DNA of 64,000 nucleotides from a virus. The notes beneath the pieces were generated by a model. The model saw only the letters and a program-made list of their open reading frames with translations, ran no database searches and was not told the origin of the DNA. The position numbers and the translations under genes were made by a program. Positions 5,115-42,762 of the stretch are shown here, one piece after another. How positions within the stretch are numbered: position 1 is the first letter of the stretch; the number at the start of each line of letters is the position of its first letter. Where the stretch lies: the IMG/VR virus record IMGVR_UViG_3300021407_000013, positions 1 to 64,000 of that record; one strand, given 5' to 3'.

Positions 5115-8100
5115 TAACCAAAATTGCCTTGTGAAGAGCCAATCATAGCAGTTTGTGTAGCTACATCAGCACCTGCCGGATTGTGAACATTCACTCTAAT
5201 TGCTTGATTATTATGATATTGAGACATATCACCAATATGCGGATGTGGTCCTGTTCGTGATGCAGTTCTTGTTGAACTAGCTCTAGCTGCATCACGTTGT
5301 GTCAAAGGATTGTTTTCGCCGCCAAGGTGTCCACCGCCTGCTACATCAATTGCAGAGTAGTTAGCGGCATCAAGTTCTCCTCTACCACCACCTATCATAT
5401 ATTGATGTTGATTATGTATTCCACGACTATTTTTCCATTGATCTGCAACATTCATACCAATAATTTTACCATTCCTATCCTTAATATAACTTTCAAAGAC
5501 AGCAGCATGATCTTGACCAATACCTGCTCTACCACCAGTACCTCCTGCATAAATGTCCTGGTTTTGTTCTCCATGCAAACCAGCAAATGTAGCAATGGGA
5601 GTTCCTTTAACTAAACCACCTTCTGTTGCTGATTCTCCTTTTCGCCAACTGCTAGTCCAAGCACCTTTTTGTCCACTACCTAATTTGATTCCAACAGAAG
5701 CTGTAGCTAATGAAACACACTGTTCGTTGGTAATCAAACCTTTATTACGAGCAGACTTCAAATGATCTAAAACATCGTCACTGTCTTTAATACCAAAATT
5801 TGCCTCTGGTGCGCCACCAGTTCCTCCAGCACTGGAAGATCCACCACCGCCTCCAGGATTGAATCCTTTTAAATAACCTAGTCGTTGGCTTGTAGCTTGC
5901 GCCACATTACCAGGTCTTTCAAAATCAGAAACAAGAGTACCTGTCATAGATTCAGCACTTCCTCCACCAGAAAGTGCTTGCCAAGTTTTCGGATAAAAAT
6001 TCTTTTGTTCCCAAATCATAGCCTTTGTTTGTTCTGCCACAGTCATATCCTGTGGCATCTTACCAAATTGCTTCATAATACGTGCAGAGCGCGCATCATC
6101 CCAAGATGCAATACCGTGTGCCATTTGGTTAGGATTAGAGCGGCTAGGATCATGATGAACGTCGGCAGGATTTCTTAACGATTCACCAGATGTATTGGCA
6201 ACTAATGCGCGTGCTGCTGTTGGGCTTAATCCTTCTGCAATGGCAGCATTATACATTTCTTGTTGATTTTTTGCCAATGCTCCTTTGGCTATATTGGTAA
6301 CTCCACTTACAACTCCGCCAGTACGACTTACTTCTTTTGGTTGACCAGCTTCATCTAATCCTCCGGAATGATAAACTCCTGCTCCGCCACCAGTGCCGAA
6401 ACCGCCGCCGCCACCTATATTGACGCCATCACCTGCACCACCACCTGCTCCTGCGCCTCCGCCACCGCCGCTAGTGCCGTCACCTTGTCCAAATTTATTA
6501 GCTAAATATTTACCAGAACCTCCTACAAGTATTTGAGAACCTTGCAAAAGCTGTTTATTGAATTCAGCTAAACTCCTAGATGTATCAGTAACATCTTTAT
6601 TCAATTTTCCGATTTTTGGACTAAATATACTAACTCTACTTACACCACCAGTAACACCACCGCCTCCTTCATCTACAACACCGCTGCCATAAATCTCGCT
6701 CTCTAATGGAGGATTGTTCTTTGGAGAACGCAATGTGCGAGCGCCTGGGCTAGCCCTTGTAGAACCAGATGAACGCGCTTTTGGATTAGCTGTAGGACCA
6801 GGCACTGCTGGAGAGCCACCTAAAATAGGGCCACCCCAACCCCAATTGTCTGAATTAAATATACCACCAGGCTTAAGTCCTGGCGCAGCTTCTGGTCCTT
6901 CATTAATCTTATTCATTTGATTTTTAATAAAGTTATCAATAGCAGGAGCAATATCTGCCAATTTATTAATAAAATGAGTTTGTATCTCAGAACTTGCTAG
7001 ATTAAGTGTGGTGCTAAGATTTGTCAACGCTTTCTGTTGTTCTTGAGTAGTTTCTAAATATTTGGCATTTGCTTCAACAGCTTCTGCCGCTTGCCTAGTT
7101 TCATCACCAGACATTCCTACCAATCGAGTAGCTTGTCCAATACCTCCTGGCAAAATTGAACCCAGGTGTTGCGCCTCAAATAAATTACCCATAGATTGTG
7201 GATTATAACCTTTTAATTTCTTTTGCGCTCTTATCATCAACTGTGCGTACATAGTTGATGGATCCATATTCTTAATTTCTTCTGGGGAAAATCCCATAAA
7301 AGTATATGCAGAGAATTCATCTCCAATCATACTTTTGGCCCTATTTGCGGCCTCTAATCCAGGCTGCACAGGGCCAAATCTTGCAAGCTCGACTTGAGCA
7401 GATTTCATTCTGCCAATATCACCACCAATTCCTGTTGCTTGAAGTCTCTGTTGCGCCCCAGTATTTGCTCCTTCAGCAACAGCGTAACCAATCGCGGCGG
7501 CAGTTCCGCCAATTCCAAGCATCTTAAGAAGATTGCCACTAAACATATTTCTCAATATGTTCTGGCTCATTCTACCAGTAGAAAACATCTGGTAGAAGGA
7601 TTCATTCCATTTATCGTTGCCCTTAGCAAATTTTTCAAAAGTAGCTTTAAACTGTCCAGAACCTGTACGGTCGTTTCCTGGACCCCAAGGTAGTCTGTCT
7701 AAATCAGATAGAGCACCTGGCTTAGGAGCTTTTGCCCATCCTCCTGTAAATTGTCCAGAACCTGTATTACTGCGCCCAGGTCCCCAACGCAATCTGTCCA
7801 TATCAGACAGAGAACCTGAAGCAGGAGGCTTTTCCCAACCTGCACTAAATTGACTGCCTGTTCCAGTTTCACTAGGCTGCGACCAAGTTGGGCGCTTGGT
7901 AAACGTACCTTGAGCGTTTCTGTATCGCTTACCTTCTGGGAATATATCCTCTTCTTGAGCTTGTTTTCTTCGCTCTCTTCTGGATTTAGAACCTTCGTTG
8001 GCTAATCTGTTTAAGTCTCTCTGTGCGCCACTGGCTTGTTTTGTAATATCAACATTAGCTCTTAGTAGCGTATTGGATTCAGCAAGAATGGAACGATACT

Positions 8101-11954: not shown

Positions 11955-12460
11955 TATTTAATATCCGCCCAACATCTAAATGATACTCGATAGATACCAG
12001 ATCGTTCAAACGATGGGCGCTGCCGAGTGCTTATGCCACGTTTGCGCTTCTTGCCTCTTGAAACTTTCGTAGGAACACCAGACACCATTCCGTTCATTTC
12101 TTCTTGGTCAAGAAAGCCTCTAAACAGCTTTTCAATTTTATTCGTTTTAGAAGCCATAAACTTAACCATACGCGCGCTGGTAGGTTTTCGCACCTCAGAT
12201 AGCGCATCTACCACAAAATTTTCAAATGTTTCTGTAACAATATCGGAAATTTCTTCATCATAAATATCTGTAAATGTACCAAGAATACCATATTTACTTT
12301 CTAAAATGTCACCTACATCTTCAGCAGTTCGTCTCGGACCTGAGTAACGACGACGCATTTTTGCTTCATGCGCTTTAACAGCAGCCACAGGTGCTGCCAT
12401 ATTCTTCAATGTATATGGAGTATTTAGAAACCCCATATGTATGACAATATCTCTTGCCAC
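11954..12460 (-). CDS. Putative neck or tail-completion protein
   Basis: 168 residues, basic in the middle and C-terminus (RGKKRKRGISTRQRPSFER). Position between Ig-like/anti-defence genes and the sheath block, and size, suit an HK97 gp10-like or tail-terminator protein. No specific motif was found. Starts and stops overlap those of both neighbours. Confidence 0.4.
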   Translation of the reverse strand: MARDIVIHMGFLNTPYTLKNMAAPVAAVKAHEAKMRRRYSGPRRTAEDVGDILESKYGILGTFTDIYDEEISDIVTETFENFVVDALSEVRKPTSARMVKFMASKTNKIEKLFRGFLDQEEMNGMVSGVPTKVSRGKKRKRGISTRQRPSFERSGIYRVSFRCWADIK

Positions 12461-35668: not shown

Positions 35669-36670
35669 TTATGCATATCTCTCCCACATCTCAGCAAAGT
35701 CTTCTTTAAAATACCATCTTGCTAATTTTCCTTCGTGTCTTTGAACTCTATTCTCGATCTCAAAATCTCTGAGTATTCGAGCAAGTTTGCCTGTTGACAA
35801 TTTATAGTCTGACCAATTTACATCGCTAAAATCTGAATTTATCAAAAACTCTACTAATTGATTATTGGTAATTGCGTCTTTCTTGCTATTGGTGAATATC
35901 TCTTGAACATCAGATAGCAACGACTCTCTGACATCTGGAATAACTCTTTCTTTATAGAAATCAGCCATTGCCTCATATGCAGTCTTCGCACGATCTACGG
36001 CATGGCCTATCGCAATGAGTGGGCGCCACTTGTCTGCGTAGCGCCCTATAATTTGTGGAGGCATTAATGGATTTGGATTGAGATTTACACCTTCTGCCCA
36101 TCGCGCAACCTCTGCGTGATAAAAAGCCTCTCTTGGATTAAATATCTCCATTTGTTTATTTGAGCGATGCATTTTAACCATTATGGATCTACTCATAAGC
36201 GATACTGGTAAATGGCCTATACTTGCAAGAGCGAGTGGGCCATATACAGGAGTTAATATGACTTCTTTACCTATTTTCCTGGGTACACTTCCTCCAATTT
36301 CGTGTCCTGCATTTAGAATGGCTTTCATACTTCTTACTATGGACATATTATCTACTTCATCAATTAGCAATGTATGACTATTAGCTAGAGCAAATGCAGT
36401 AGCTGGAGTTGGATCTATTACTTTCTCTGGGCGCCACACAATTGAGTTTAAAATATTGAGTACAGAACTTTTACCGCAGTTTGGTAATGGGCTGAAAATT
36501 AGCAGTCTAGGTGATTTATCATATCTTCTATGTATGTGGGTATGTAGCGCCCAGAGACCTAGACCTACAATATGATGTGGTTTTGCGTCTATACATCTGG
36601 CAAAAGCACCGCATACTTGGTCAAGAATGTTAGTATCAGCGTGCAATTTGGTTGATGATAACGTGGGCAT
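35669..36670 (-). CDS. DUF3631-type P-loop ATPase
   Basis: 333 residues. Walker A PLPNCGKS at 61-68, Walker B LLIDEVD near 105, then a region SIGHLPVSLMSRSIMVKMHR and ALANSHT typical of the DUF3631 proteins of phages and mobile elements, which accompany primase or replicase functions. The C-terminal 90 residues look like a winged helix (NNQLVEFLINSDFSDVNWSD). Flanked on both sides by the inverted repeat. A helicase-loading or replication-initiation role is likely. Confidence 0.7.
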   Translation of the reverse strand: MPTLSSTKLHADTNILDQVCGAFARCIDAKPHHIVGLGLWALHTHIHRRYDKSPRLLIFSPLPNCGKSSVLNILNSIVWRPEKVIDPTPATAFALANSHTLLIDEVDNMSIVRSMKAILNAGHEIGGSVPRKIGKEVILTPVYGPLALASIGHLPVSLMSRSIMVKMHRSNKQMEIFNPREAFYHAEVARWAEGVNLNPNPLMPPQIIGRYADKWRPLIAIGHAVDRAKTAYEAMADFYKERVIPDVRESLLSDVQEIFTNSKKDAITNNQLVEFLINSDFSDVNWSDYKLSTGKLARILRDFEIENRVQRHEGKLARWYFKEDFAEMWERYA

Positions 36671-36685
36671 TAGCCTTCTCCTTGT

Positions 36686-36709
36686 CGAAAAAAGTGTACA
36701 AGTGTAACA
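36686..36709. repeat. Inverted repeat, right copy
   Basis: CGAAAAAAGTGTACAAGTGTAACA, the reverse complement of the left copy except for one extra A. It lies just upstream of the ATPase gene in the intergenic space. Confidence 0.7.
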
Positions 36710-36725
36710 TTCATCTTTCTTCTCC

Positions 36726-36959
36726 TCAATTCATTCGTTTCTGCATGTATAATGAAGCTTCTTCCTTGGTTAAATCTTGCGCTACTATTCCAACCAAAGG
36801 TTTATTTTCTTCAGCTATATCTTTTGCAAGAACTTCAATTGCTTTTTCTCCCATATGCATATTGAAATGCAAGCCTTCTTCAATTTCTCCTTCTCTCATA
36901 CCTGTAAATACAGGTGTACCATTATATCGTAGTACCTCGTAAATAAACCATTTGGACAT
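36726..36959 (-). CDS. Small protein of the ATPase operon
   Basis: 77 residues (KWFIYEVLRYNGTPVFTGMR, GEKAIEVLAKDIAEENKPLV) with an alpha-beta pattern. First gene downstream of the promoter at 37,177-37,205. Function unknown. Confidence 0.5.
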   Translation of the reverse strand: MSKWFIYEVLRYNGTPVFTGMREGEIEEGLHFNMHMGEKAIEVLAKDIAEENKPLVGIVAQDLTKEEASLYMQKRMN

Positions 36960-36985
36960 TTTTCTCTCCTAGTTGATCTCGTCAG

Positions 36986-37002
36986 GTAGTGTATTACACT
37001 AC
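36986..37002. promoter_or_regulatory. 17-bp palindrome, operator-like
   Basis: GTAGTGTA-T-TACACTAC, perfect 8+1+8, in the leader of the ATPase operon. Part of it (TTACAC) also occurs in the flanking inverted repeats. Confidence 0.5.
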
Positions 37003-37003
37003 T

Positions 37004-37038
37004 ATTATCAGCTCATAATTATAGCGTAAGCTGATAAT
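37004..37038. repeat. 10-bp inverted repeat (ATTATCAGCT)
   Basis: ATTATCAGCT at 37,004-37,013 and AGCTGATAAT at 37,029-37,038. ATTATCAGC occurs again before the TerS-like operon at 34,342, so both may be bound by one regulator. Confidence 0.55.
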
Positions 37039-37176
37039 TTCGATCTCAGGAAACGACGCAACCATTTTGGTAGTTACTTAACCGCATGGCATTCTTCTAA
37101 TACCAGGTTTGTGTCGCTTTTCGTCGAAATGACTGCGCCCGAGTTTTCTCTCGGGTGAAATTCCTGCTTACAACCT

Positions 37177-38621: not shown

Positions 38622-38937
38622 CCAGGAAGTACATGACAACCTCATTGCTCTCGGATACACGTATCTATTCAGATACAAGAATAGATACGATGAGTATAAC
38701 CATCCTATTAACGACGACTGGATTAGCATAGACAAAGTTGGGCGTGTAGATTTCCCAGATATATGCTCCTATATTGATACTCCAAAGCATAAAGCTAAAA
38801 TCCAGAGGGATATGACACCTGCTATGGCATTAAGAATAGCAGTTAATATGAAGAAAATATTTGAACAAAAGAATTTGCCATACCAATTAGATATAGATGG
38901 TCATAAAATAAAATTAGGAATAATGACTCAACATTAG
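38605..38937 (+). CDS. Early protein before first hammerhead
   Basis: 110 residues from ATG 38,605 (AGGAG upstream). Contains EVHDNLIALGYTYLFRYKNR-YDEY, an N-terminal part that resembles the protein at 47,887 (LHSFLLKKGYKYTENIRYDR-YDHA), so the two may be paralogues. The TAG stop lies in the first hammerhead. Function unknown. Confidence 0.5.
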   Translation: MTKMFNQEVHDNLIALGYTYLFRYKNRYDEYNHPINDDWISIDKVGRVDFPDICSYIDTPKHKAKIQRDMTPAMALRIAVNMKKIFEQKNLPYQLDIDGHKIKLGIMTQH

Positions 38938-39000
38938 ACCGAAACTGGTGCGCCATATAGGGCGTTCCAGTCCTAGCGTGAGGCGCTAGCTGACGAGGTC
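38937..39000 (+). ncRNA. Type II hammerhead ribozyme 1
   Basis: Order GAAA (38,941-38,944), stem III with CTGG/CCAG, a small internal loop and a CGCC/GGCG upper helix, cleavage site GTC (cut after C38,972), stem I CTAGCG/CGCTAG with a 5-nt loop, core CTGACGA (38,990-38,996), and stem II formed by the outer ends GACC and GGTC. All core nucleotides of the hammerhead are present; the open helix is stem II, hence type II. The G of the upstream TAG is in stem II. Confidence 0.93.
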
Positions 39001-39019
39001 AGTAACAGGAGAAAGTACA

Positions 39020-39241
39020 ATGGCACGGGTAATTGTTCAGGTTAAGCTTGCAGACATCAATGGAAACGAATACACGGAAGGTGAGTTGCTTCGTGAATTT
39101 ACAGTAGTAACCAAAGGTCGCGGTGCAATAAATATACAGTCGATGGCATCAATTATACAAGGTACAATCGAAGCTTATGAGGACAAATTTAGGGTTGAAA
39201 ATACCAAAACATATTCAGTAACAAATCGCCGAACTGGTTAA
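39020..39241 (+). CDS. Early protein between hammerheads 1 and 2
   Basis: 73 residues, beta-rich (RVIVQVKLADINGNEYTEGE). The only gene between the first two ribozymes, so it would end up on a monocistronic mRNA. SD ACAGGAG. Function unknown. Confidence 0.5.
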   Translation: MARVIVQVKLADINGNEYTEGELLREFTVVTKGRGAINIQSMASIIQGTIEAYEDKFRVENTKTYSVTNRRTG

Positions 39242-39244
39242 CCA

Positions 39245-39303
39245 GGCCGAAACTGGCAGGTGCGATCTGCCAGTCCTAGCGTAAATCGCTAGCTGACGAG
39301 GTC
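39245..39303 (+). ncRNA. Type II hammerhead ribozyme 2
   Basis: GAAA (39,249-39,252), stem III of nine pairs (CTGGCAG/CTGCCAG plus closing A-U) with loop GTGCGAT, GTC cut after C39,275, stem I CTAGCG/CGCTAG with loop TAAAT, CTGACGA (39,293-39,299), stem II GGCC/GGTC with one G-U pair. Starts three bases after the TAA of the upstream gene. Confidence 0.93.
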
Positions 39304-39322
39304 AGTAACCAGGAGAACTAAA

Positions 39323-39610
39323 ATGGCACAGATAGAAGATGAGCAATTACTCGCGATGTATTCGCGGGATTTTACCACTGATAAGTCCTATGGACAGCTC
39401 AGTGTTGTCTCCATACTCACAGAGAGTGTGGAGCAACTAACAGATCTCATACCAGAGATCGCTACGCTCCCAGTTGAGCGTAAGGCACAGATTGAAGAGC
39501 AGATTGTGCTCTTCACTCTTTCGCTCTACCACGAAGGTAGATTGCGCGGTGAAGCTGCGGAGCGTTCCACACAAGAGGCTGATTCTGATCGCCTCTCAAA
39601 TTACGAGTGA
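39323..39610 (+). CDS. Helical early protein
   Basis: 95 residues, acidic and helical (ESVEQLTDLIPEIATLPVER). First gene after hammerhead 2 with AGGAG in front. Function unknown. Confidence 0.5.
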   Translation: MAQIEDEQLLAMYSRDFTTDKSYGQLSVVSILTESVEQLTDLIPEIATLPVERKAQIEEQIVLFTLSLYHEGRLRGEAAERSTQEADSDRLSNYE

Positions 39611-39618
39611 GGTAGCAA

Positions 39619-39858
39619 ATGACAACCATTACAATCGAACTAGAGATAGTTCAGGCCCAAGAACTTGCCGCAGTAGCACGTGGCAAAGCTAAGGGCATCG
39701 ACTGGGTTCTGGAGAATAAACCTCCAATTCCCAAGAAGGCGTTAGAGCTTGATGAGCGAGCTAAGGTGCTCATACAAGCAGCCACTACCATTGAGACAGC
39801 GCTCCATGCAAGGGCGCTCTCCAATGTCGTTCCGTTGGGAGGTAAAAATGCCGGCTGA
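39619..39858 (+). CDS. Early protein of unknown function
   Basis: 79 residues, Ala-rich helices with a beta-start (TTITIELEIVQAQELAAVAR). GAGGTAGC SD. Overlaps the next gene by 11 bp. No family. Confidence 0.5.
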   Translation: MTTITIELEIVQAQELAAVARGKAKGIDWVLENKPPIPKKALELDERAKVLIQAATTIETALHARALSNVVPLGGKNAG

Positions 39859-40144
39859 TCCCTGGATCGTATGCCCAGTCTGCGATGGCGAAGGCAAGAC
39901 TGTCAATCCGAACATTGATTCGAACGGATTGACCAGAGAAGACTTCGATGAAGACCCAGACTTCAGAGAAGATTATATGAGCGGCGTATATGATATTACG
40001 TGCGCTGCTTGCTCTGGGAAGCGTGTTGTGAAAGCAGCACGTATCGAGGAGCTTCAACAAAATGCTGAAGATCGACGCCTCGCCGCTCGTGAGAACGGTG
40101 ATTATGAATCATACTGCGGTGCAGGCGACTGGAGGTATGGGTAA
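39848..40144 (+). CDS. Zinc-finger protein, DnaJ-type
   Basis: 98 residues from ATG 39,848. CPVCDGEGKTV and CAACSGKRVV are two C-x-x-C-x-G knuckles, about 40 residues apart, with an acidic insert (DFDEDPDFREDY). Could act as a protein- or nucleic-acid-binding adaptor. Confidence 0.55.
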   Translation: MPADPWIVCPVCDGEGKTVNPNIDSNGLTREDFDEDPDFREDYMSGVYDITCAACSGKRVVKAARIEELQQNAEDRRLAARENGDYESYCGAGDWRYG

Positions 40145-40383
40145 TGGACAAGCAAATAGAAAATCGCGCCAAGTACCCATACATCTGCGCTTGGGGTATG
40201 CGACTTGGTTCTTTTCAATATTATATCGACGGAGAAATTAAAAGAGCCATCGAGGACGGCGCTCCTGAGCGTGCCATTTACAAGAGCGGTTCAGGAGAGT
40301 GGCGCACCATTGATGATTGTGCGAACCCCAATGCTAAAGAAGAATGTGAGGCGTGGGTAGCTAAAAAATACCCTGGCAAATAG
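40144..40383 (+). CDS. Early protein before hammerhead 3
   Basis: 79 residues with several aromatic residues (KYPYICAWGMRLGSFQYYID). Stop and start overlap the preceding gene; its own TAG contributes its G to stem II of hammerhead 3. Function unknown. Confidence 0.5.
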   Translation: MDKQIENRAKYPYICAWGMRLGSFQYYIDGEIKRAIEDGAPERAIYKSGSGEWRTIDDCANPNAKEECEAWVAKKYPGK

Positions 40384-40439
40384 ATCGAAACTGGCAGTGC
40401 GATTGCCAGTCGCGTTGTAATGCAACGCCTGACGAGGTC
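40383..40439 (+). ncRNA. Type II hammerhead ribozyme 3
   Basis: GAAA (40,387-40,390), stem III CTGGCA/TGCCAG with loop GTGCGAT, GTC cut after C40,411, stem I GCGTTG/CAACGC with loop TAATG, CTGACGA (40,429-40,435), stem II GATC/GGTC with one U-G pair. Stem I differs at several pairs from ribozymes 1 and 2 yet stays fully paired. Confidence 0.93.
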
Positions 40440-40464
40440 AGTTACCCAAACCAGGACTACGAAA

Positions 40465-40677
40465 ATGGCTATCCAAAATACAACATTATATGAGGATAAC
40501 TATGGCTTCTACTGTGTAGAGGAGCCAGATGAAGAAGCCTTCTACGTCCACATCGTAAAGCAGAGTGTGGCGAAGAAGTGCTCGCGTTGCCAAAAGAAGG
40601 TGCGCTTGTTGAAGCATATCAAAATGTGCGCTTCGTGTTCTAATGCCATCGAGTTTGGCGCATCGGAGTCAATATAA
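40465..40677 (+). CDS. Zinc-ribbon early protein
   Basis: 70 residues from ATG 40,465. Acidic N-terminus (EEPDEEAFYVHIVKQ) and a ribbon KCSRCQKKVRLLKHIKMCAS-CSN. Overlaps the next start by one base. First gene after hammerhead 3. Confidence 0.55.
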   Translation: MAIQNTTLYEDNYGFYCVEEPDEEAFYVHIVKQSVAKKCSRCQKKVRLLKHIKMCASCSNAIEFGASESI

Positions 40678-40961
40678 TGTCAAACGAAATTTTAGAAGCT
40701 GTGCCAGACACAGAAGCCAAGCCGCGTATGGTTAAGATACAGGTGTGGTGTTGGAAGACCTATACCAAAAAATACAAAGATGAAGTTGTTAGCTTCATGT
40801 CAGAAGAATACAGCGCTGATGCTTACAAGTCGGAAGGTGACATTATAAATCATCATCTTACAAACGGCCACTACCAATTGCATCGTATTGATTGCTTCTA
40901 CACTTTAATACATGAAGGTGGTTCTACTGATATACTGCAATGGAGGTTCGAGCAGTCATGA
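40677..40961 (+). CDS. Early protein of unknown function
   Basis: 94 residues, alpha-beta, with a central VWCWKTYTKKYKDEVVSFMS. The stop overlaps the next start as ATGA. No family recognised. Confidence 0.5.
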   Translation: MSNEILEAVPDTEAKPRMVKIQVWCWKTYTKKYKDEVVSFMSEEYSADAYKSEGDIINHHLTNGHYQLHRIDCFYTLIHEGGSTDILQWRFEQS

Positions 40962-41260
40962 AAGAAGGTAATCACATCATTACCATTGAAGAGCTATTTT
41001 TATTATCTGTCATGCTTCGACAGTTCCAAGAAAAAGTAGAAGCAATTGACAAAGACAAAACAATTTCATCTTTCGTTGCCTTGTTTCCATTGGAGCAAGA
41101 CAAGTCAGAAGATCCACATGAAATTGCTAAAGTTTCTCTCCAGAATTTATTGGAGGGATTCGAGAAAACCGAGCGTCAAATTCGCGATACAAACTACCAG
41201 TTGTTCAAAGTTAGAACATTTCTGGAAGCCCTAAAGGATGGCGCCTCAGATTGGAAATAG
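40958..41260 (+). CDS. Early protein before hammerhead 4
   Basis: 100 residues from ATG 40,958 (ATGA overlap). Helical, with TIEELFLLSVMLRQFQEKVE and a C-terminal charged helix. Its TAG ends on the first base of hammerhead 4. Function unknown. Confidence 0.5.
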   Translation: MKEGNHIITIEELFLLSVMLRQFQEKVEAIDKDKTISSFVALFPLEQDKSEDPHEIAKVSLQNLLEGFEKTERQIRDTNYQLFKVRTFLEALKDGASDWK

Positions 41261-41326
41261 ATCGAAACTATGGGGCGCACCAAAAGCGTTCCATAGTCGC
41301 GGCGTTACTCGCCGCCTGACGAGATC
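41260..41326 (+). ncRNA. Type II hammerhead ribozyme 4
   Basis: GAAA (41,264-41,267), stem III CTATGG/CCATAG with two G-U pairs and CGC/GCG above, GTC cut after C41,298, stem I GCGGCG/CGCCGC with loop TTACT, CTGACGA (41,316-41,322), stem II GATC/GATC. Relative to ribozymes 1 and 5 both sides of stem II changed together, a compensatory pair change. Confidence 0.93.
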
Positions 41327-41345
41327 AGAAAAAGGAGTAGGTAGC

Positions 41346-41555
41346 ATGACGAAAGTAGATCCAAAATCTGCCTTTGAAGGGGACACCATTACTCCCATCG
41401 AAAAGCCCAAAACAAGGCAACAGAAAATTGTTGAGTATAGAGCAGCTCACGAAGCTGAGTATCGTAAGGCGTGCCACGAAGAGCAATGCACCTGCACACC
41501 AACGCGGGCGCAAATGCTCATTATGGAGAATTACAACCATCCACCGATCGACTAA
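41346..41555 (+). CDS. Early protein after hammerhead 4
   Basis: 69 residues from ATG 41,346 (AAGGAG upstream); an upstream in-frame start would run through the ribozyme. Charged, with CHEEQCTCTPTRAQ near the end. Followed by a terminator. Function unknown. Confidence 0.5.
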   Translation: MTKVDPKSAFEGDTITPIEKPKTRQQKIVEYRAAHEAEYRKACHEEQCTCTPTRAQMLIMENYNHPPID

Positions 41556-41574
41556 GAAAATTTATTGAACTTAG

Positions 41575-41597
41575 TGGGGCTTCGGCCCCATTCTTTT
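41575..41597 (+). terminator. Intrinsic terminator inside the cluster
   Basis: TGGGGC-TTCG-GCCCCA and then TTCTTTT, a UUCG tetraloop terminator. The next gene on the same strand follows 35 bp later with no clear promoter, so readthrough is probably regulated. Confidence 0.75.
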
Positions 41598-41631
41598 AGG
41601 TCATTTAAGGCCACTAACCAGGAGAGTAAAA

Positions 41632-41928
41632 ATGGAAATCCACGACAATCTTCACTATACTGATTCTACATACGGAAACCCAGAACGTAAATGGCAGATG
41701 CGTTCTGATCACATTCTCAAGCTGTTCGATCTACCACCGAATGGTCCAATTCCTCCTGATCATTTCGATTCTAGGGTTATTGGCAATGTGCAGGTTATGA
41801 TCGTTCCGCGCGGTTATTTCAAAATCAAGCGTCGTGTGGTCGCGTATTGCCCCAAGTGCAAGAAAATTGTGTGCGCTGGTCATTTAATGCAGCACATGAA
41901 GGTCCACAAGAAGGACCAGGAGATTTAA
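41632..41928 (+). CDS. Zinc-finger protein
   Basis: 98 residues. N-terminal alpha-beta part and a C-terminal CPKCKKIVCAGHLMQHMKVH, a C2H2-type arrangement that could bind nucleic acid. AGGAGAG SD follows the terminator closely. Confidence 0.55.
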   Translation: MEIHDNLHYTDSTYGNPERKWQMRSDHILKLFDLPPNGPIPPDHFDSRVIGNVQVMIVPRGYFKIKRRVVAYCPKCKKIVCAGHLMQHMKVHKKDQEI

Positions 41929-41929
41929 G

Positions 41930-42073
41930 ATGACTCAATTAGATTTTCATTCCGCCTGTATTTTGGTCCTCGGTCTTGGAGGCTTCGCCAATACCGTTGC
42001 CAATTATCTGCTATCAAAACGAGTCCGCTATTTGGAGCATAAACGCAAGGTTATGTTCTGGGAAAGGGAGTAA
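41930..42073 (+). CDS. Small membrane protein, 47 residues
   Basis: MTQLDFHSACILVLGLGGFA, one hydrophobic span, then a basic tail (KRVRYLEHKRKVMFW). It starts two bases after one stop and the next start follows its stop directly. Topology N-out is suggested by the basic C-terminus. Function unknown. Confidence 0.5.
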   Translation: MTQLDFHSACILVLGLGGFANTVANYLLSKRVRYLEHKRKVMFWERE

Positions 42074-42301
42074 ATGACCGAACAGGAAGAAGCATTTGAT
42101 CTATGGAAATCCAGAGTAGACGTTTATCTGGAGCAGATGGTTAAAAAGCTAAGTGGAGATTTTCGTTACGATTTTTTGAAAGACTTCAACGATAAGGTTC
42201 CACCTAGCGTAACAGCAACCAGAGTTGTTAAAAGTCAATACAAAGGAGCTAGAAATGGCAGAGTACGAAGTCAAATCAAACGGGAAGAAGCTCCTCGATG
42301 A
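42074..42301 (+). CDS. Early protein of unknown function
   Basis: 75 residues, charged and helical (EEAFDLWKSRVDVYLEQMVK). The last 15 codons overlap the next gene. No family. Confidence 0.45.
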   Translation: MTEQEEAFDLWKSRVDVYLEQMVKKLSGDFRYDFLKDFNDKVPPSVTATRVVKSQYKGARNGRVRSQIKREEAPR

Positions 42302-42485
42302 GTATCGAGGAGACCGCGTTTTTGGAGATTGTTATGTCATTCTTAAGGATGGAAAGGAATCGTATGAAGTCGTCCTTTCTACCATAGTTGACAGTTGCAA
42401 TTGCCCAGGATTTACACATCACGGGCATTGTAAGCATATTGATATGACTTACGAGAAAGCATTTGTTTCTGAAGTAGATCAATAG
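42255..42485 (+). CDS. SWIM zinc-finger mini-protein 1
   Basis: 76 residues from ATG 42,255 (AAAGGAG upstream). SCNCPGFTHHGHCKHIDMT is a C-x-C-xn-C-x-H SWIM finger, used to bind DNA or proteins. A relative is at 48,591. Its TAG supplies the first base of hammerhead 5. Confidence 0.6.
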   Translation: MAEYEVKSNGKKLLDEYRGDRVFGDCYVILKDGKESYEVVLSTIVDSCNCPGFTHHGHCKHIDMTYEKAFVSEVDQ

Positions 42486-42549
42486 ACCGAAACTTGGTGC
42501 GCCACAAAGGCGTTCCAAGTCGTGCTGTTAGGCAGCACCTGACGAGGTC
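42485..42549 (+). ncRNA. Type II hammerhead ribozyme 5
   Basis: GAAA (42,489-42,492), stem III CTTGG/CCAAG with a two-nt internal loop and CGCC/GGCG above, GTC cut after C42,521, stem I GTGCTG/CAGCAC with loop TTAGG, CTGACGA (42,539-42,545), stem II GACC/GGTC. The internal loop of stem III is shared with ribozyme 1. Confidence 0.93.
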
Positions 42550-42573: not shown

Positions 42574-42720
42574 ATGGGTGACCCAGAAGAGCATAAAGAC
42601 GAAGAGTTGAGCGTAAAGGCTGATACTCCTGCTCCAAAGGAGGAAGGTCCGTCTGAACCAAAAGAACCAGAAGCGGATCCAATCCGTAAAGGTGAAGGCG
42701 ATCAGCCTGAAGTAGCGTAA
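42574..42720 (+). CDS. Small acidic protein, 48 residues
   Basis: GGAGGTAGC precedes ATG 42,574. Begins MGDPEEHKDEELSVKADTPA and is disordered, rich in Glu, Asp, Pro and Lys. Last gene before a strong terminator. Function unknown. Confidence 0.5.
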   Translation: MGDPEEHKDEELSVKADTPAPKEEGPSEPKEPEADPIRKGEGDQPEVA

Positions 42721-42727
42721 GCATAGG

Positions 42728-42762
42728 CCGCTCCCATTTGGGAGGATGGGAGCGGTTTCTTT
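42728..42762 (+). terminator. Intrinsic terminator
   Basis: CCGCTCCCAT and ATGGGAGCGG, ten perfect pairs, 8-nt loop, then TTTCTTT. Closes the hammerhead-containing unit. Confidence 0.85.

Follow-up and report, generated by a model that had tools for sequence, protein, structure and literature searches.

What do hammerhead ribozymes do when they stand one after another between the genes of a phage? The question is raised by the first 64 kb of the 75,145-bp IMG/VR virus record IMGVR_UViG_3300021407_000013, a stretch of 64,000 nucleotides (nt) referred to here as the window. An initial annotation, made from the letters alone, had described five type II hammerhead ribozymes between early genes. 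By sequence and predicted structure, these five plus-strand elements (HHR1 to HHR5) and a sixth on the minus strand (HHR6) are type II hammerheads. We consider it likely that they act as mRNA-separating joints, at which self-cleavage would turn the gene blocks into independent mRNAs.

Six hammerheads and their covariation

HHR1 (38937–39000), HHR2 (39245–39303), HHR3 (40383–40439), HHR4 (41260–41326) and HHR5 (42485–42549) lie to the base where the initial annotation had placed them. Each is situated between a stop and a start codon, the next start codon following 19–25 nt downstream, and each reads stem II, GAAA, stem III hairpin, GUC, stem I hairpin, CUGACGA and stem II again. Loops close stems I and III and both ends lie in stem II, as in the type II permutation. 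Cleavage is predicted at 38972/38973, 39275/39276, 40411/40412, 41298/41299 and 42521/42522, in exact agreement with the first nucleotides originally proposed for the 3' products (38,973; 39,276; 40,412; 41,299; 42,522). The finer description was also accurate: the GAAA, GUC and CUGACGA core comes in type II order in all five copies, stem I has 6 base pairs (bp) and a 5-nt loop starting with U in every one, and the stem II pairs are GACC/GGTC, GGCC/GGTC, GATC/GGTC and GATC/GATC. All five copies were real, but the count was one short, as a structural scanner run on both strands recovered HHR1–5 and also HHR6 (36975–37045, minus strand); it gave no match in 100 dinucleotide shuffles of the window. 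HHR6, in which H17 is an A at 37003 and the 3' product is predicted to start at 37002, lies 15 nt ahead of the start codon of an open reading frame (ORF) at 36726–36959 on the minus strand, in a block transcribed oppositely to the array. The core C3U4G5A6N7G8A9 - G12A13A14 - A15.1:U16.1 - H17 and the three helices are complete in all six copies, and the minimum-free-energy fold of each element in isolation is the hammerhead (z -2.4 to -5.4).

Viral-contig elements were collected with patterns that fixed stem II and the core and left stems I and III free. In this unfiltered control, stems I and III both form in 203 of 212 distinct viral matches, and of the 11 matches that a similar pattern gave across 84,980 cellular genomes only one folds. 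We aligned 60 diverse viral elements, excluding this phage and its near relatives. The alignment has 98.1% of its cells paired (28–42% in slid controls), double changes at 14 of 16 pairs and a covariation score of 0.913 versus 0.185 when shuffled; the scanner having pre-filtered these rows for pairing, the 203/212 count is the cleaner control. A covariance model built from this alignment only (R1) gave exactly six matches on the whole 75-kb record and none besides, with E-values of 1.5e-15 to 2.6e-12. HHR1 to HHR5 scored 59–62 bits (60.0, with E 5e-15, then 61.8, 61.9, 60.0 and 59.4 in order), and HHR6 50.6 bits (E 2.6e-12). Between HHR3 and its orthologue in the related phage G002, stem III changes from CTGGC/GCCAG to CAGCC/GGCTG, two compensatory double changes in an otherwise near-identical element. 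The type II identity claimed at the outset is thus borne out jointly by element order, core and covariation.

A covariance search with the Rfam type II model, which the initial annotation had proposed as a check, was negative, and it is the independently trained R1 that finds all six copies. Scanned over the window and short loci at its gathering cut-off (37 bits) and at E 10, RF02276 (Hammerhead_II) matched none of the six, even at E 10. The same model scores many siblings of the same design at about 23–46 bits, three elements of one virus exceed its cut-off, and a match in the close relative G007 stays below it at 25.3 bits (E 1.4e-4). Since RF02276 scores siblings, its miss of the window copies reflects the model and not the RNA, the copies lying just outside it.

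The ribozyme class, the type II form and clustering in phages are already known; the large array is new here. Clustered bacterial and prophage type II hammerheads flank phage genes, processing of long phage RNAs was proposed for them, and a triple array in an A. tumefaciens prophage cleaves in vivo (Perreault et al. 2011, PMC3088659). The regular array that had been called remarkable is real, but hammerhead clusters by phage genes were published in that 2011 study, and same-strand arrays of up to ten occur elsewhere. Like the hammerheads of PMC3088659 and RF02276, the window copies are open at stem II, have the same catalytic core and cluster by phage genes. They differ from the published type II elements in the stop codon fused to stem II, the UCAG tail and the five to ten copies per array described below, and in lying beyond the reach of the Rfam model.

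R1 also matches Burkholderia phage Bcep176 at 12,167–12,239 (46.9 bits), and the matched sequence is a ribozyme that has been assayed (PMC7151607). Its natural C6 form cleaves in vitro at 0.31 per min at 1 mM Mn2+, a C6A version cleaves more efficiently, and changing GAAA to GUUU kills cleavage (PMC7151607). C6A is the consensus core, as in the window copies. The Bcep176 element resembles these further in the A just before stem II, the four base pairs of stem II and six of stem I, a 5-nt U-first loop (UUAUG), an AG tail after GAUC and the gp32 stop codon a few nt upstream. It differs in being the single R1 match in its genome, in its core variant CUGCUGA (C6) and in preferring Mn2+. PaP3, published as a hammerhead carrier, gave no R1 match.

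Family design, stop codons and the UCAG tail

All fetched loci were scanned, yielding 356 distinct elements on 216 loci; 309 of these came from two patterns without flank specification and give the same picture. Arrays run on one strand (137 of 140 adjacent pairs share it) and reach ten copies. The viral contigs L275, L284, L168, L147 and L229 carry 7 to 10 type II hammerheads each, in one orientation and about 140–1,900 bp apart. Stem II has 4 bp in 343 of 356 elements, and the 6-bp stem I is a family-wide feature. An A stands directly 5' of stem II in 349 of 356 (98%), and in 179 of the 181 elements where no identified upstream stop codon provides it; in HHR1–5 it lies at 38936 (the A of a TAG stop), 39244, 40382, 41259 and 42484. 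Loop I begins with U in 346/356, and among 5-nt loops position 3 is A in 226/296 and position 5 is G or U in 283/296. Constancy of this kind suggests that loop I makes a fixed tertiary contact with the open end of stem II, on the model of the reverse Hoogsteen pair that type I and III hammerheads conserve (PMC6155905). A Watson-Crick pseudoknot between loop I and the 3' tail was rejected, as the longest complement equalled the shuffled expectation in 343 elements (2–4 nt in the window copies). This is a further difference from the published type II consensus, in which most members have such a pseudoknot; many lack it (PMC3088659), so that strictly it does not define the type.

In its distal part, stem III shows a few sequence types, GGCGCCACAAAGGCGTT, CAGTGCGATTG and GCAGGTGCGATCTGC, that reappear at different sites (L069, L071, L072, L007 and several window copies), which suggests copying from ribozyme to ribozyme, inside one genome or from one genome to another. 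The one cellular match that folds, at 5734–5787 of L061, has this design too, with AATAGACC ahead of its core; L061 is a 25-kb contig of a Bacteroidetes metagenome-assembled genome (MAG) and may be a phage contig that was binned there.

Stop codons touch the ribozymes. In HHR1, 3, 4 and 5, four of the five plus-strand copies, the G of the upstream TAG (38935–38937, 40381–40383, 41258–41260 and 42483–42485) is the first base of stem II. The TAA upstream of HHR2 (39239–39241) ends three nt before stem II, and HHR6 has no adjoining stop. Across the family, a TAG supplies the first stem II base in 116 of 356 elements, TAA or TGA stands one base further out in 50, and the stop starts within -9 to -5 of G12 in 240 of the 306 elements with an identified upstream ORF. 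In five related phages, TAG is the stop of 15 of the 30 genes that precede a ribozyme and of 17 of the 88 that do not (p = 0.002, without phylogenetic correction).

The 3' edge of stem II and its tail usually read UCAG, the complement of the core CUGA. In HHR1 the UCAG at 38999–39002 is complementary to the CUGA at 38990–38993, giving a CUGAC-GAG-GUCAG hairpin; HHR2, 3 and 5 have its equivalent, HHR4 a 4-bp version and HHR6 none. Twenty-nine elements lack the tail AG and carry a displaced UCAG a few bases on, and in all 29 the preceding base pairs with core position 7 (T7 with A in 21, T7 with G in 3, C7 with G in 5; C/T versus G/A, p = 0.0005, a statistic weakened by relatedness). This pairing supports a conserved CUGAN:N'UCAG hairpin that is incompatible with the hammerhead. 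The hairpin is predicted in the 3' product of HHR1–5, and its roles as a product trap after cleavage and as an off-state are both compatible with the data.

Hammerhead cleavage leaves a 5'-OH and a 2',3'-cyclic phosphate. If the elements are joints between messages, the polycistronic phage transcript would cleave itself after the GUC of each element (AUA in HHR6), in the interval that separates a gene's stop codon from the ribosome-binding site of the gene that follows. This would leave an upstream piece ending a few tens of nt past its stop codon, with the stem III hairpin and the cyclic phosphate, and a downstream piece whose 5'-OH and stem I hairpin precede the ribosome-binding site. The freed CUGA would then pair with the UCAG tail into a second small hairpin stacked on stem I, which may hinder religation. 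We infer that these copies cleave in infected cells and that the tail traps the product; each gene block would thereby become its own mRNA, insulated from its neighbours.

The same features could belong to ribozymes that cut only when translation permits. With the stop codon against or within stem II, a terminating ribosome would sit on stem II and GAAA and block folding; cleavage, possible only in its absence, would be coupled to upstream translation, with the UCAG tail as the off-state partner. The shared TAG base, the narrow stop spacing, the excess of TAG before ribozymes and the conserved alternative hairpin all point this way. However, stop adjacency may also reflect compact genomes and the need for the 5' A, which TAG, TAA and TGA all supply, and HHR6 has no stop beside it. 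As an account of the array we regard gating as unlikely, though it is the most serious competitor to mRNA separation.

Gene blocks and cassette exchange

The blocks between the five ribozymes hold one to five small ORFs each, all on the plus strand. A 73-amino-acid gene (39020–39241) fills the interval from HHR1 to HHR2. The HHR2–HHR3 block (39323–40383) comprises 39323–39610, 39619–39858, a gene ending at 40144 and 40144–40383; the HHR3–HHR4 block (40465–41260) comprises 40465–40677, 40677–40961 and 40964–41260; and the HHR4–HHR5 block (41346–42485) comprises 41346–41555, 41632–41928, 41930–42073, 42074–42301 and a gene ending at 42485. After HHR5 comes a 48-amino-acid gene (42574–42720), whose homologue is preceded by a CTTGG/GTGCTG-type ribozyme in all five phages compared. 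No cassette gene received a confident function from PHROGs, and a search with one HHR3–HHR4 block protein found no relatives.

The five phages compared (the window, G002, G012, G014 and G007) have flanking genes in common on both sides, and the blocks between differ. G002, 97% identical, lacks the 73-amino-acid gene and has a single hybrid ribozyme in its place. The 5' part of the hybrid with its upstream flank matches HHR1 at 91 of 95 positions and is far less like HHR2, and the 3' part with its downstream flank matches HHR2 at 123 of 128 and is far less like HHR1. Conversely, at the place where HHR5 stands alone in the window, G002 carries two genes as a block between two ribozymes. In comparisons that are not independent of one another, ribozyme junctions were kept between relatives in 10 of 116 pairwise cases versus 130 of 264 for other junctions, and 3 of 25 distinct ribozyme junctions were kept versus 13 of 34 others (p = 0.04). 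Judged by these gene orders, the ribozymes mark the limits of exchangeable gene cassettes in the relatives. If the blocks are insulated as separate mRNAs, they could be gained and lost with the ribozyme as joint.

A minus-strand block at 35669–37045 holds a DUF3631 gene (35669–36670) and HHR6; a related gene is on the plus strand in G002, G012 and G014, and replacement or inversion of the block seems to have taken place in the phage studied here. Among isolate phages, megablast of the region found nothing, blastn of single ribozymes only chance-level pieces, and tblastn of the terminase no isolate above 60% identity. T4-type phages carry "mobile regulatory cassettes", promoters and stem-loops repeated at gene boundaries that accompany the shuffling of small modules. 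These work alike, as repeated regulatory elements at gene joints; they carry no self-cleaving ribozymes, and no homology is claimed.

The low retention of ribozyme junctions and the G002 hybrid at the edges of the missing cassette would also be expected if the elements were chiefly recombination joints at the DNA level, repeats giving short homology for cassette gain, loss and swap, with RNA cleavage secondary. A pure recombination site would keep its sequence, however, whereas here the stems diverge freely and keep their pairing, and the core is invariant at catalytic positions. This makes a primarily DNA-level role improbable.

Probable transcript separation and its consequences

Separation of mRNAs by self-cleavage is supported by the architecture, the covariation, the independent model matches, the family distribution, the stop and start placement, and the cassette insertions and deletions with their hybrid ribozyme. 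By analogy, it is also supported by the published cleavage of the Bcep176 element in vitro and of the A. tumefaciens triple array in vivo. Several observations weigh on the other side. Stem II has to compete with the CUGA/UCAG hairpin, and predictions that ignore tertiary contacts give the hairpin a slight advantage in stability over the hammerhead in the plus-strand copies, so that cleavage could be slow, partial or regulated. Relative to G002, at least one gene replacement (40,677–40,961) and a replaced block before 37.6 kb are not flanked by ribozymes at both ends; the proposition that every structural change falls at a ribozyme was rejected, as at least one, the replacement at 40,677–40,961, lies elsewhere. 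Terminator-like GC hairpins with T-rich tails occur inside and after the array (41573–41592 and, read by eye, about 42725–42762), and termination there may also separate transcripts.

Two same-strand ribozymes around a block would give exactly the 5'-OH and 2',3'-cyclic phosphate ends that host RtcB could join into circular mRNAs, or that could mark the pieces against decay. Circular or spliced products were sought and went undetected in the tested bacterial arrays (PMC3088659), and we think such a fate very improbable. That the elements are chance or decayed motifs without cleavage activity, as the missing Rfam match for any window copy might suggest, is hardly credible in view of the covariation, the shuffles, the independent model and the orthologous compensatory changes.

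That terminating ribosomes gate cleavage at the stop codon and that UCAG traps the product are hypotheses that the sequence raises. Taken together with insulation, they would describe a widespread phage device: a stop codon is built in through the conserved A and often the first stem II base, the terminating ribosome gates cleavage, UCAG traps the product, and the blocks become independent in expression and hence exchangeable. We put this full combination forward as a tentative proposal, unlikely as a whole. Stop-codon fusion, conserved UCAG pairing and ribozyme-bounded cassette exchange found no mention in the open-access literature searched.

What hammerheads do in bacteria and phages has been a standing question since 2011, and this array and its relatives make it directly testable. 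Here the ribozymes sit at defined joints between genes, one relative, 97% identical, lacks a cassette and has a fused hybrid ribozyme in its place, and comparable elements number in the hundreds. Overlap with the stop codon and pairing of UCAG give two concrete predictions that can be probed by mutation, namely that cleavage may be coupled to translation and that it may be made irreversible.

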